IMG/VR virus record: IMGVR_UViG_3300013120_000220
Location: 1-35,796 of that record
Reading direction: 5' to 3' (one strand)
Source of the DNA: a virus
DNA length: 35,796 nt
In this document: positions 15,854-34,180 of the stretch, in pieces
How positions within the stretch are numbered: the stretch's first letter is position 1
Layout: each line of letters opens with the position of its first letter
Translations under genes and position numbers: made by a program
The notes under the pieces: generated by a model
The model's input: the letters and a program-made list of their open reading frames with translations, nothing else
Databases searched by the model: none
Told to the model about the DNA's origin: nothing

Positions 15854-15882
15854 TTGACAAAAATAAAGAATAGTGTTATAAT
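15854..15882 (+). promoter_or_regulatory. Sigma70-type promoter of leader RNA 1
   Basis: Perfect TTGACA (15854-15859) and TATAAT (15877-15882) with a 17-base spacer. Transcription should begin near 15889, directly before the first stem of the leader RNA. Confidence 0.9.
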
Positions 15883-15888
15883 TAAGCA

Positions 15889-16010
15889 TAAGATAAAATT
15901 TAATTTTCGTAGTGGCTAATTAAATAATATCAAAAAATTTCATAAAACATTGTAAGGCTCTCTGCCACTACAAGCTTTAATTAGCTTAGAGAGTTTTACA
16001 ATGTTTTTTT
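15889..16010 (+). ncRNA. Kissing-loop leader RNA 1 (upstream of replisome organizer)
   Basis: A 5' hairpin with an 8-bp stem (15898-15905 / 15918-15925) has GTAGTGGC (15909-15916) in its loop. A 3' hairpin with an 18-bp stem including two G.U pairs (15946-15963 / 15988-16005) has in its 24-base loop the exact complement GCCACTAC (15964-15971), then a small nested hairpin aagct / agctt. A T tract (16004-16010) follows. The ribosome site and ATG of the next gene begin just after. It can act as an attenuator of the gene at 16035, as a free RNA of about 120 nt, or both. Confidence 0.75.
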
Positions 16011-16034: not shown

Positions 16035-16871
16035 ATGGCTCATTTTATAAAATTAGATGTGAATATTATGAACGATACTAAAATAAAAATTATTCGTAAA
16101 ATGCCAGAGGGTGCAAAAATATTTGAATTATGGCTTGGAATTTTATGTCTAGGAATGAAATCTGGGAAACTAGGGGTTTTAGAAATTGGAGATGGAATAT
16201 ATTTTAATGATGAAATGTTATCTGCTGAACTAGACATTGATTTGCAAGTTGTAAGAATGGGGTTAAATATTTTTACAAAATTAAAGATGATAGAAGTATT
16301 AGATAATAACAGTATTTATATAACAAATTTCGAAAAACATCAGAATACTGAAAAGATAACACTAGCAAGAGAACAAACAAGAAAAAGAGTACAAAAACAT
16401 AGAGAAAAGAAGCTTTTACAGCTTAGTAACAGTGATGTAACGCGTTACAAGCAAGTTACGAACGAAAATGTAACGCCGACAGAAATAGAATTAGAATTAG
16501 AATTAGAACAAGAGAAAGAAAAAGATATATATATTACCATTTTTTCAAGATGGAATGAGTGTAAAATAATTGTTCATAAAAAATTATCAAATAATATGAA
16601 AAAATATATTGATAAGTTAATAAAAGATTTTGAATTGGAAGAAATTACAAAAGGAATAGAAAATTATTCTGATATATATAAAAGTGAAAAAACATGGTTC
16701 AATCATAAATGGACGCTTGAAGAGTTTTTAAGTAGAGAAAAAGGAATAAGAGTTTTTATATACAAGTCTATAAATGATTATTTAGTAAAAGATAATTTTA
16801 AACAACCTAAAAAATCAAGATTCTCTTATGAGAACGAACAACCACAACAGCAAGAAATAACAATAGGGTGA
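16035..16871 (+). CDS. Phage replisome organizer (N-terminal Phage_rep_org_N type)
   Basis: 278 residues. The N-terminal domain (about 1-115) matches the replisome-organizer fold: FIKLDVNIMNDTKIKIIRKM, then LWLGILCLGMKSGKLG, then a winged-helix pattern ending IYITNFEKHQN. A basic linker (RKRVQKHREKK) and a Glu/Leu repeat (ELELELEQEKEK) follow, then a C-terminal domain. Such proteins bind the origin, which often lies within the gene, and recruit the helicase loader, which is encoded at 17132. First gene after leader RNA 1. Confidence 0.75.
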   Translation: MAHFIKLDVNIMNDTKIKIIRKMPEGAKIFELWLGILCLGMKSGKLGVLEIGDGIYFNDEMLSAELDIDLQVVRMGLNIFTKLKMIEVLDNNSIYITNFEKHQNTEKITLAREQTRKRVQKHREKKLLQLSNSDVTRYKQVTNENVTPTEIELELELEQEKEKDIYITIFSRWNECKIIVHKKLSNNMKKYIDKLIKDFELEEITKGIENYSDIYKSEKTWFNHKWTLEEFLSREKGIRVFIYKSINDYLVKDNFKQPKKSRFSYENEQPQQQEITIG

Positions 16872-20221: not shown

Positions 20222-20250
20222 TTGACAAAGTTAAATAATAGTAGTATTAT
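20222..20250 (+). promoter_or_regulatory. Sigma70-type promoter of leader RNA 2
   Basis: TTGACA at 20222-20227, 17-base spacer, TATTAT at 20245-20250. Start of transcription expected near 20257. Confidence 0.85.
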
Positions 20251-20256
20251 GAGTTA

Positions 20257-20367
20257 TAAACATAATCATTTAATCGCTAATGAATGATAAATAAAAGAAA
20301 ATGCTTATTATAACCCCTGTTTAGCGACAATACTTCAATGTGTAGGGGGGTTGTGATAAGCTTTTTT
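20257..20367 (+). ncRNA. Kissing-loop leader RNA 2 (upstream of DUF6948 gene)
   Basis: 5' hairpin stem 20265-20272 / 20281-20288 (8 bp, one T.G) with TCGCTAA (20274-20280) in the loop. 3' hairpin stem 20303-20317 / 20347-20361 (15 bp, two G.U) with the complement TTAGCGA (20321-20327) near the start of its 29-base loop, followed by a weak nested hairpin (20328-20333 / 20340-20345). Six T follow (20362-20367). RBS aaggag and ATG 20382 come directly after. Confidence 0.75.
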
Positions 20368-20381
20368 ATTAAGGAGAAAAT

Positions 20382-20759
20382 ATGAAACCTGAAACAATTA
20401 TGATTGATGATGTAAAATATGTAAGAGAAGATAGTATAAAAGAAAATGCTATAGAAATTGATGGTTTAAAAGCTGTTTTAATTAGATCATATTCAAGTGG
20501 CGTGCATTATGGGTATTTAAAAGAAGAAAAAGACTTACTTGCTGGGTTGTCTGTAACTTTGGTAAATAGTAGAAGAGTATGGAATTGGTATGGAGCAGCT
20601 TCTTTGTCACAATTAGCTATAGATGGGGTTAAAGATAAGGAAAATAGCAAAATAGCAATGATACTCCCAGAAATACAAATACAGCAAGTAATTGAAATTA
20701 TTCCATTGTCAAAGAATGCATTAGAAAATCTTAATGAGGTTCCAATATGGAAACAATAA
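20382..20759 (+). CDS. DUF6948-like protein
   Basis: 125 residues. The central block AVLIRSYSSGVHYGYL followed by TLVNSRRVWNWYGAASLSQL is the signature I associate with DUF6948, a phage and bacterial family of unknown function. C-terminal VPIWKQ is also typical. It is the first gene after leader RNA 2. Its last codons overlap the start of the repeat-protein gene. Confidence 0.65.
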   Translation: MKPETIMIDDVKYVREDSIKENAIEIDGLKAVLIRSYSSGVHYGYLKEEKDLLAGLSVTLVNSRRVWNWYGAASLSQLAIDGVKDKENSKIAMILPEIQIQQVIEIIPLSKNALENLNEVPIWKQ

Positions 20760-32315: not shown

Positions 32316-32344
32316 TTGACATAATAAAATTATTTCACTATTAT
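32316..32344 (+). promoter_or_regulatory. Sigma70-type promoter of leader RNA 3
   Basis: TTGACA at 32316-32321, 17-base spacer, TATTAT at 32339-32344, three bases after the MuF stop. Expected start near 32351. Confidence 0.85.
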
Positions 32345-32350
32345 ATTATT

Positions 32351-32456
32351 ACTGATTAGCCTGATACCTAATAAGTAATAATATTTAGCCTTTTGATGAT
32401 ATTTGTATCAGCTTTCTACTATTTAGAAGAAAGGAATATCATCAAAAGGCTTTTTT
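32351..32456 (+). ncRNA. Kissing-loop leader RNA 3 (upstream of cytosine methyltransferase)
   Basis: 5' hairpin: act / agt (32351-32353 / 32374-32376) plus attag / ctaat (32355-32359 / 32368-32372), loop with CTGATAC (32361-32367). 3' hairpin: perfect 16-bp stem 32388-32403 / 32435-32450 with the complement GTATCAG (32405-32411) at the start of its loop and a nested hairpin ctttct / agaaag (32412-32417 / 32428-32433). Six T follow. This is the clearest member of the family. Confidence 0.8.
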
Positions 32457-32470
32457 ATTTAGGAATTTTT

Positions 32471-33526
32471 ATGAGTAAATACAATTATGAGTGGACTTTA
32501 AAAGATGCAAATTTCACAAAAGACAAGGGAAAAGTATTCTCTTGCTTTGCTTGTGGTGGTGGTTCAACAATGGGTTACAAGCTAGCTGGGTTTGATGTAA
32601 TAGGATGCAATGAGATAGACCCTAAAATGAATGAATGTTATGTGAAAAATCACAATCCTAAATATAACTATTTAATGGATATAAGAGAATTTAAGAATCT
32701 TGAAAATCTACCAGAGGATTTATATAATCTTGACATATTAGACGGTTCTCCACCTTGCAGTAGCTTTTCGATGGCTGGGAATAGAGGAAAAGACTGGGGA
32801 AAAGAAAAAAAATTCAGAGAAGGACAAGCAAGTCAAGTATTAGATACTTTGTTTTTTGATTTTATAGATGTAGCAAAAAGATTAAAACCAAAAATTGTAA
32901 TAGCTGAAAATGTAAAAGGTTTAATACAGGGAGAGGCAAAAGAGTATGTTGATAAAATATTCAAAGCTTTTGATAATGCAGGGTATAAGGTTGGTTTAAA
33001 ACTCTTAGATGCTTCAAAAATGGGTGTCCCTCAAAAAAGGCAAAGAGTATTTTTTTATGGAATTAGAGAAGATTTATTAAAACATATAGGAACTTGCGAT
33101 TTATTTGGAGAAGAGCCAGAACTTGATTTAAATTTTGAACATGAAGTAATACATTATAAAGAAATAAGAGAAGAGCAAGGTAATGAAAGTGCAATAGGGT
33201 TGTCAAGTCAAATTTCTAAATATTGGAAACTGACAAAACCCGGAAATCCTTTTAGTTCAGTACATGAAAAAGGTAGTTATTTTAATGAAATAAAAGCAGG
33301 ACCGGATAAAGTACTACCAACAATTAGAGCAAACGGCGTCCCTTATGATTATAAAACAGAAAGGATTTTATTTGATAATGAAATTAAAAAAGCCGGTTCA
33401 TTCCCTATGGATTATAATTTTATGAATAATAAAAGTTATTACATTATTGGAATGTCAGTTCCTCCTTTAATGACTGCAAATATAGCAGATAGAATTTACA
33501 CACAATGGTTGTCAAAATTAAAATAA
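32471..33526 (+). CDS. DNA (cytosine-5) methyltransferase
   Basis: The ATG at 32471 with agga upstream is preferred over ATG 32393, which lies inside the leader RNA. 351 residues. Motif I VFSCFACGGGSTMGYKLAG at 22-40, motif IV with catalytic Cys in GSPPCSSFS (Cys96), motif VI AENVKGL, motif VIII QKRQRVFFYG, and the late motif X MSVPPLMTANIADRIY. It probably protects phage DNA from host restriction. Own promoter and leader make it a moron-like module between head genes. Confidence 0.9.
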   Translation: MSKYNYEWTLKDANFTKDKGKVFSCFACGGGSTMGYKLAGFDVIGCNEIDPKMNECYVKNHNPKYNYLMDIREFKNLENLPEDLYNLDILDGSPPCSSFSMAGNRGKDWGKEKKFREGQASQVLDTLFFDFIDVAKRLKPKIVIAENVKGLIQGEAKEYVDKIFKAFDNAGYKVGLKLLDASKMGVPQKRQRVFFYGIREDLLKHIGTCDLFGEEPELDLNFEHEVIHYKEIREEQGNESAIGLSSQISKYWKLTKPGNPFSSVHEKGSYFNEIKAGPDKVLPTIRANGVPYDYKTERILFDNEIKKAGSFPMDYNFMNNKSYYIIGMSVPPLMTANIADRIYTQWLSKLK

Positions 33527-33529
33527 ATC

Positions 33530-33558
33530 TTGACATTGTGCAAAATTTATTGTATTAT
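33530..33558 (+). promoter_or_regulatory. Sigma70-type promoter of leader RNA 4
   Basis: TTGACA at 33530-33535, 17-base spacer, TATTAT at 33553-33558, beginning three bases after the methyltransferase stop, the same spacing seen for leader 3. Confidence 0.85.
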
Positions 33559-33564
33559 ACTTTT

Positions 33565-33658
33565 ATACGGCATACGTCCACAACAAAGCCGAAACAATTT
33601 GACAACCCTTTAAGATTTCAGGAGTGGACGCTTGATTCTTTTAGGGTTGTTTTGTTTT
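33565..33658 (+). ncRNA. Kissing-loop leader RNA 4 (upstream of Cys-repeat protein)
   Basis: 5' hairpin cggc / gccg (33568-33571 / 33588-33591) with CGTCCAC (33575-33581) in its loop. 3' hairpin acaaccct / agggttgt (33602-33609 / 33643-33650), extended outward by aaacaa / ttgttt with a three-base bulge and inward by aaga / tctt, encloses the complement GTGGACG (33624-33630). A U-rich tract follows (33650-33658). It is the most divergent member: the 5' stem is short and no separate nested hairpin follows the complement. Confidence 0.65.
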
Positions 33659-33682: not shown

Positions 33683-34180
33683 ATGAAAAAAGAAAATGGA
33701 TGGTGGATTGATGAATATAATAATAAATGGGATTGCGATTATTACTCAGAAGATCAAGCAAAAAAATATAGCGAATCGCTTATAAATTGTATTGATTGTC
33801 GTGATTGTAGTAATTGTAGAGATTGTAGAGATTGTATTGATTGTAGAGATTGTATTAATTGTCATGATTGTAGTGATTGTCGTGGTTGTAGTTATTGTAG
33901 TTATTGTAGTTATTGTAGTTATTGTAGTTATTGTAGTTATTGTAGTAATTTTAAATATAATCCCAATAGATATACAGGAAATAAAATAGGGTCAAGAGAT
34001 TCAAAAACTACTACTTACTGGATAAAAGGCAATATTCAAGTTGTATGTGGTTGTTTTAAGGGGAGCCTTGAAGAGTTTGAAAATAAAGTAAAAGAGACTC
34101 ATAAAGATAATGAATACGCAAAACAATATAATAATTATATTAAAATAGTTAAAACTATAATGGAAATGGAAAAGGAATAA
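33683..34180 (+). CDS. Cys-every-third-residue repeat protein
   Basis: Start at ATG 33683 with RBS gagaggtgtaa; an open frame back to 33632 runs through the leader RNA and is not used. 165 residues. Residues about 36-87 are CxxCxx repeats: 18 Cys at exact three-residue spacing, with xx mostly RD, ID, SN, then SY. The C-terminal domain reads YWIKGNIQVVCGCFKGSLEE then VKETHKDNEYAKQY, a phage/bacterial domain often preceded by such repeats. A tight beta-helix-like or metal-binding rod is likely. Function unknown. Confidence 0.7.
   Translation: MKKENGWWIDEYNNKWDCDYYSEDQAKKYSESLINCIDCRDCSNCRDCRDCIDCRDCINCHDCSDCRGCSYCSYCSYCSYCSYCSYCSNFKYNPNRYTGNKIGSRDSKTTTYWIKGNIQVVCGCFKGSLEEFENKVKETHKDNEYAKQYNNYIKIVKTIMEMEKE
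33788..33943 (+). repeat. Nine-base tandem coding repeat (Cys-repeat region)
   Basis: TGT codons every nine bases, 18 in all. The 3' half is almost perfect (tgtagttat repeated), the 5' half more varied (gattgtaga). Hydrophobic open frames in the other phases are artefacts of the repeat. Confidence 0.85.

Follow-up and report, generated by a model that had tools for sequence, protein, structure and literature searches.

Four times in one phage genome, a consensus promoter is followed by two hairpins and, shortly after them, by a gene, and the loops of the two hairpins can pair with each other. Is this arrangement a genuine RNA element, and what might it do for the genes behind it?

Four promoter-linked leaders

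The DNA under analysis, called the window below, is the whole of the IMG/VR virus record IMGVR_UViG_3300013120_000220, at its full length of 35,796 bases and with 30% GC. It belongs to a tailed phage, with genes for a PBSX-type terminase, a portal and a tape-measure protein. Methyltransferase and terminase proteins identical to those of the window were found in a 22 kb IMG/VR record, IMGVR_UViG_3300009320_000132, so the same or a near-identical phage has been recorded twice. Terminase relatives sought in viral contigs yielded nothing beyond this second record, and a DNA search detected no close relatives of the window among cultured phages. Shine-Dalgarno-like sites were observed at 36 of 43 inspected window genes, which together with the sigma-70-like promoters suggests a host outside the Bacteroidota, in contrast to the hosts of the relatives described below.

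A perfect TTGACA with a 17-base spacer and TATAAT or TATTAT occurs in the window only at 15854, 20222, 32316 and 33530, always on the plus strand. Downstream of each of the four sites comes first a 5' hairpin, then an AT-rich linker and a long hairpin whose large loop is interrupted, and finally a U-tract and a gene. The parts are as follows.

15854 to 15882, plus strand: member 1 promoter, TTGACA, 17-base spacer, TATAAT
15898 to 15925, plus strand: member 1 5' hairpin, kissing segment GTAGTGGC at 15909-15916
15944 to 16010, plus strand: member 1 terminator hairpin and U-tract, kissing segment GCCACTAC at 15964-15971, inner hairpin 15972-15987
16035 to 16871, plus strand: member 1 downstream gene, replisome organiser (Phage_rep_org_N)
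20222 to 20250, plus strand: member 2 promoter, TTGACA, 17, TATTAT
20265 to 20288, plus strand: member 2 5' hairpin, kissing segment TCGCTAA at 20274-20280
20303 to 20367, plus strand: member 2 terminator hairpin and U-tract, kissing segment TTAGCGA at 20321-20327
20382 to 20759, plus strand: member 2 downstream gene, DUF6948 protein
32316 to 32344, plus strand: member 3 promoter, TTGACA, 17, TATTAT
32348 to 32379, plus strand: member 3 5' hairpin, kissing segment CTGATAC at 32361-32367
32387 to 32457, plus strand: member 3 terminator hairpin and U-tract, kissing segment GTATCAG at 32405-32411, inner hairpin about 32412-32434
32471 to 33526, plus strand: member 3 downstream gene, C5 cytosine DNA methyltransferase
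33530 to 33558, plus strand: member 4 promoter, TTGACA, 17, TATTAT
33568 to 33591, plus strand: member 4 5' hairpin, 4-bp stem that is not the minimum free energy (MFE) fold, kissing segment CGTCCAC at 33575-33581
33603 to 33658, plus strand: member 4 terminator hairpin and U-tract, kissing segment GTGGACG at 33624-33630
33683 to 34180, plus strand: member 4 downstream gene, protein of unknown function (phrog_15341 / phrog_20532)

The promoter scan thus returns exactly the four leaders that the preliminary description had grouped under one plan. Its large-loop terminator is present and can be refined, in that the terminator-side kissing segment of members 1-3 forms a 5' bulge beneath an extra apical hairpin and that of member 4 is apical. 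The gene was said to begin 15-25 bases past the terminator; the start codons (16035, 20382, 32471, 33683) are indeed near, at about 20-35 nt past the terminator stem, slightly farther than described for members 1 and 4.

Complementary loops in the window

The perfect complementarity over 7-8 bases that had been claimed for all four leaders is exact, with GTAGTGGC/GCCACTAC, TCGCTAA/TTAGCGA, CTGATAC/GTATCAG and CGTCCAC/GTGGACG pairing over 8, 7, 7 and 7 bases in members 1-4. Shuffling of the terminator loops gave p = 0.0011, 0.0077, 0.0051 and 0.021, respectively, and a Fisher combined value of 1.6e-6. Plain MFE folding, which cannot display pseudoknots, leaves the kissing segments of members 1-3 unpaired. 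Member 4 is the weakest of the four, since its 5' hairpin (CGGC/GCCG) loses to a 3-bp alternative in the MFE fold.

Related leaders in other phages

Large-loop terminator hairpins preceded by a hairpin with a complementary loop were sought in a scan, with swapped loops as the control. Own loops gave 34 matches against 4.9 for swapped loops at score 20, and 21 against 1.3 at score 22; low-scoring matches are mostly chance. The convincing relatives lie directly behind promoters, in Flavobacteriia phages of the TAnnTTTG type. A promoter requirement leaves 51 candidates, about ten of which were judged chance, so that some 40 promoter-anchored members are known in total, mostly from Flavobacteriia phages and usually ahead of replication operons. 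They include the cultured Flavobacterium phages mumin9-1, tooticki6-1, morran9-1, 11b, FCL-2 and elemoA_7-9A, as well as Cellulophaga phi13:2 and phi18:3 and Olleya Harreka_1. A further 98 loci were retrieved with a profile of a replication protein encoded close to several of the leaders; more than half of these and the earlier loci carry an above-threshold candidate, many 12-27 nt upstream of a start codon, in a list that is redundant and has a tail of chance matches. Among loci from bacterial assemblies, a candidate was found only in L140 and L144. No convincing member was detected in lambda, THSA-485A, a Helicobacter pullorum prophage, Marinitoga virus 1, B40-8 or part of crAss001, and FCL-2 and phi18:3 scored positive in the same batch in which lambda, THSA-485A, B40-8 and others were negative.

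No such leader precedes homologs of the replisome organiser and the methyltransferase of the window, at identities reaching about 70%; it is therefore not tied to the gene. Among relatives of the DUF6948 protein, a pseudoknotted variant occurs only in L091/L275; the matches at three other such loci (L286, L292, L298) look like chance. About 105 nt upstream of the L091 gene at 3001, a DUF6948 homolog, lies a TTGACA-17-TATACT promoter, and the leader there has perfect inverted repeats of 13 and 14 bases that interleave as an H-type pseudoknot; it lacks a clear U-tract, and we regard it as a looser relative of the window plan. On the minus strand of L119 near 17444, repeated AGGTAACC-type motifs with an 11-base loop match occur without gene context, probably as an unrelated repeat.

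The second hairpin of the Flavobacteriia type combines an outer stem of about 11 bp with an internal loop that often reads UGAA/GGAU or the reverse and an inner stem of 3-4 bp; its kissing segment is in the apical loop. The loop of the 5' hairpin often holds the 8 kissing bases plus a tail, such as ATTATA, behind them, and linkers tend towards AAAGGAATTATT. Across the family, the loop-loop helix has 6-9 bp, usually 8, and the start codon usually follows 5-35 nt downstream; the distance from the terminator base to the kissing segment is near 21 nt, mostly 18-24, across unrelated sub-types. An argument from strain between rod and linker was dropped, as linker length does not rise with rod length (rho -0.29) and loop geometry may put both stems at one end of the kissing helix. 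A terminator/antiterminator choice could exist in L212, where two alternative 3' arms, TGAGATTCTT and TGAGGTTTTTT, seem to be available to the second hairpin ahead of the gene at 736.

Copy number varies from four in the window through three in the L167 phage (GGTCTGAA, CGTCCGAC, GTGAGAGC) and two in several phages to one in many. Within multi-copy genomes, a leader's own loops match over 7-8 bases and those of different copies over 3-6, so that the codes are different and mutually orthogonal. The genes behind the leaders vary as well, with replication initiators, primases, a methyltransferase and homing-type endonucleases among them.

Covariation of the loop-loop helix

Homologous leaders of the sister Flavobacterium phages mumin, tooticki and morran carry GTGGAACG/CGTTCCAC, GTGAGACG/CGTCTCAC and GTGAGAAG/CTTCTCAC, in which changes on one side are compensated on the other. 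Likewise L096 carries GCGTGAGA and L098 GCGTGGAA, each with a matching partner, and L203 carries CGTCTAAC and L215 GGTCTAAC. In the sister Flavobacterium phages (L119:12660-12822 and the tooticki/morran equivalents) the leader sits at the exact junction of a replication-module exchange, where similarity stops just past the U-tract and the kissing code differs between haplotypes.

In a plain MAFFT alignment of 16 leaders, standard pairs fill 79.7% of the kissing-helix cells against 60.1 +/- 2.8 after shuffling, both sides have changed in 7 of the 8 kissing pairs, and the covariation score is 0.53 against 0.20 shuffled and 0.26 for the best slide; the hairpin stems covary also. Because these 16 leaders had been selected for kissing, a covariance model built without the kissing helix offers the cleaner test. 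All 28 of its matches below 1e-5, of which 12 lie outside the seed and several of those 12 are near-identical to each other, have complementary loops, over 8-9 bp in 27 and over 6 bp in one (L162). Matches above 1e-5 are mixed, and in L037 the 5' part is truncated. In a set of 18 representative leaders, a leader's own two loops are complementary over 8-9 bp in 17 cases and over 6 in one; the 306 cross pairings reach at least 8 bp only three times, via shared codes. The loop-loop helix is thus maintained by compensatory change, as in a kissing-loop RNA, and the earlier proposal that pairing is conserved without sequence is strongly supported and extends to many phages. Homologous leaders that had lost complementarity, named in the preliminary description as the observation that would count against it, were sought and none was found among the good model matches.

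Is the second hairpin a terminator?

Among hairpins picked without any U-tract requirement, a T-run of at least four follows 16 of 22 high scorers, compared with 152 of 1255 (12%) of all hairpins, and 20 of 26 in a second set. The promoter-anchored scan was not used for these frequencies because it includes U-tract-selected hairpins. A U-tract is present in about three quarters of the members, and a stable hairpin with a U-tract stands between promoter and start codon in all four window members and in most, not all, relatives. It is missing from L111, L182 (near 3825), L102 and the looser L091, the first three of which keep the rest of the plan, so termination cannot be universal; judged from the nucleotides, it is likely for most members. 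No competing antiterminator stem was found in the four window members or in relatives. The 5' loop is complementary to the terminator loop and not to its stem, so the kissing helix and the full terminator can coexist, which differs from a classical antiterminator.

Proposed mechanism and alternatives

The architecture, with two hairpins, a loop-loop helix, an adjacent promoter, a nearby start codon and usually a U-tract, is established at the level of sequence. We propose, at a probability of roughly 0.5, that it is a cis-acting 5' leader in which a promoter-proximal intrinsic terminator, an attenuator of early phage genes, has its loop docked on the 5' hairpin of its own transcript. RNA polymerase would make the 5' hairpin first, and its loop would capture the emerging terminator loop before the terminator stem is fully zipped. 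From the arm lengths, some 27 nt separate the kissing segment from the growing RNA end at the time the U-tract is synthesised, and polymerase covers about 14 nt of RNA, so the segment should already be outside the enzyme and docking is possible before the terminator is complete. Docking would then shift the balance between termination, which releases an RNA of about 95-125 nt, and read-through to the gene. We lean slightly to read-through as the favoured outcome, because otherwise a plain terminator would precede replication genes that are essential. When read-through is allowed would probably be set by a factor, of host or phage origin, that recognises the shape and not the letters, and the differing codes within a genome would prevent leaders from pairing with each other. 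Control of the downstream gene in cis is argued for by the close same-strand gene and the directly adjacent promoter. Of the roles first offered for the leader, the attenuator fits best, given the shared strand, the short distance to the start codon and the enriched U-tract; RNA multimers and an independent trans-acting RNA fit less well.

A 5' stabiliser or translation element is rather unlikely, although it survives best of the alternatives. A kissing-locked double hairpin just ahead of the ribosome footprint would shield the 5' end from nucleases, with the U-tract incidental or a leaky terminator. The 5' hairpin does start within a few bases of where transcription is expected to begin, the gap before the start codon is short and varies little, and the plan persists in the members that lack a U-tract; the strong enrichment of U-tracts over background hairpins argues against it. 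The T4 gene 32 leader likewise has a pseudoknot in the 5' leader of a phage replication gene, ahead of the ribosome site; it differs as an H-type pseudoknot for translational autoregulation without a terminator, whereas the genes behind the kissing leaders are mutually unrelated.

Processive antitermination is a doubtful alternative, in which the compact kissing RNA would contact its own polymerase and make it resistant to this and later terminators. The element stands at the start of all four strong window promoters and before early operons elsewhere, and its structure is kept and its sequence is not. However, no conserved unpaired contact sequence is common to the window and Flavobacteriia leaders, and a terminator-like hairpin belongs to the element. 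The HK022 put RNA and lambda nut likewise place two hairpins at the start of early phage transcripts, but put is sequence-constrained and without a terminator of its own, and no NusB/N-type box as in lambda nut was recognised in the phage leaders.

About as doubtful, and marginally more so, is a trans-acting or dimerising RNA, in which the terminated leader would pair with other copies via its loops for copy control or superinfection immunity. The plan predicts release of an RNA of roughly 95-125 nt, codes differ among close relatives, and replication genes are frequent downstream. ColE1 RNA I/RNA II and P4 CI RNA also combine loop-loop pairing and diverging codes with control of replication or immunity. 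Their partners are separate molecules, usually encoded on opposite strands in ColE1-type antisense systems, whereas both loops of the phage leader belong to one transcript and one strand. Being complementary inside one molecule, the loops would be expected to pair in cis. The small sets considered give no support for kissing loops evolving faster than the rest of the leader, and the close same-strand genes favour cis control.

Chance complementarity of ordinary hairpin loops is highly improbable for the family, being contradicted by the combined statistics, the swapped controls, the compensatory changes and the kissing-blind covariance model, although single 7-base matches reach individually only p of about 0.005-0.02, weak scan matches are mostly of this kind, and a single member such as member 4 could be imperfect.

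Relation to known RNAs and significance

That no named RNA family is known to have this plan, as had been stated earlier, agrees with a covariance-model search against Rfam 15, which at gathering score gave no match in the window or in 13 related loci, save an unrelated type-P5 twister ribozyme (RF02684, 54 bits) at L091:1230-1283 in a metagenomic phage contig; sub-threshold matches (miRNA models, PyrG_leader) were far under the cut-offs. A search of the open literature, with most subscription journals outside its reach, found nothing on such leaders. The proposed attenuator shares with known attenuators and terminator riboswitches, such as the purine riboswitch and T-box leaders, a 5' leader with a promoter-proximal terminator before the gene and, in some, a loop-loop contact. 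The purine riboswitch has L2-L3 kissing loops. Unlike these, the phage leader has no conserved ligand pocket or letters, its kissing partner is the terminator loop itself, and no competing antiterminator stem was seen. Attenuation leaders and kissing loops are thus each known, and a terminator locked by its own 5' loop with private codes appears undescribed.

The kissing-loop leader looks like a real, undescribed RNA control element, because pairing is kept across many phages despite freely changing letters. More tentatively, and with odds clearly against it, these leaders may form a widespread sequence-free class of phage RNA, in which a terminator loop locked to its own 5' hairpin gates early operons under private codes and all gates are opened together by a factor, from host or phage, that recognises shape. 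Their presence in cultured Flavobacterium, Cellulophaga and Olleya phages allows direct testing, and natural compensatory variants exist, so that the control of intrinsic termination by loop-loop docking becomes experimentally accessible. Such a leader would represent a form of RNA control whose architecture is conserved solely as base-pairing topology, and which is hard to find by sequence search.
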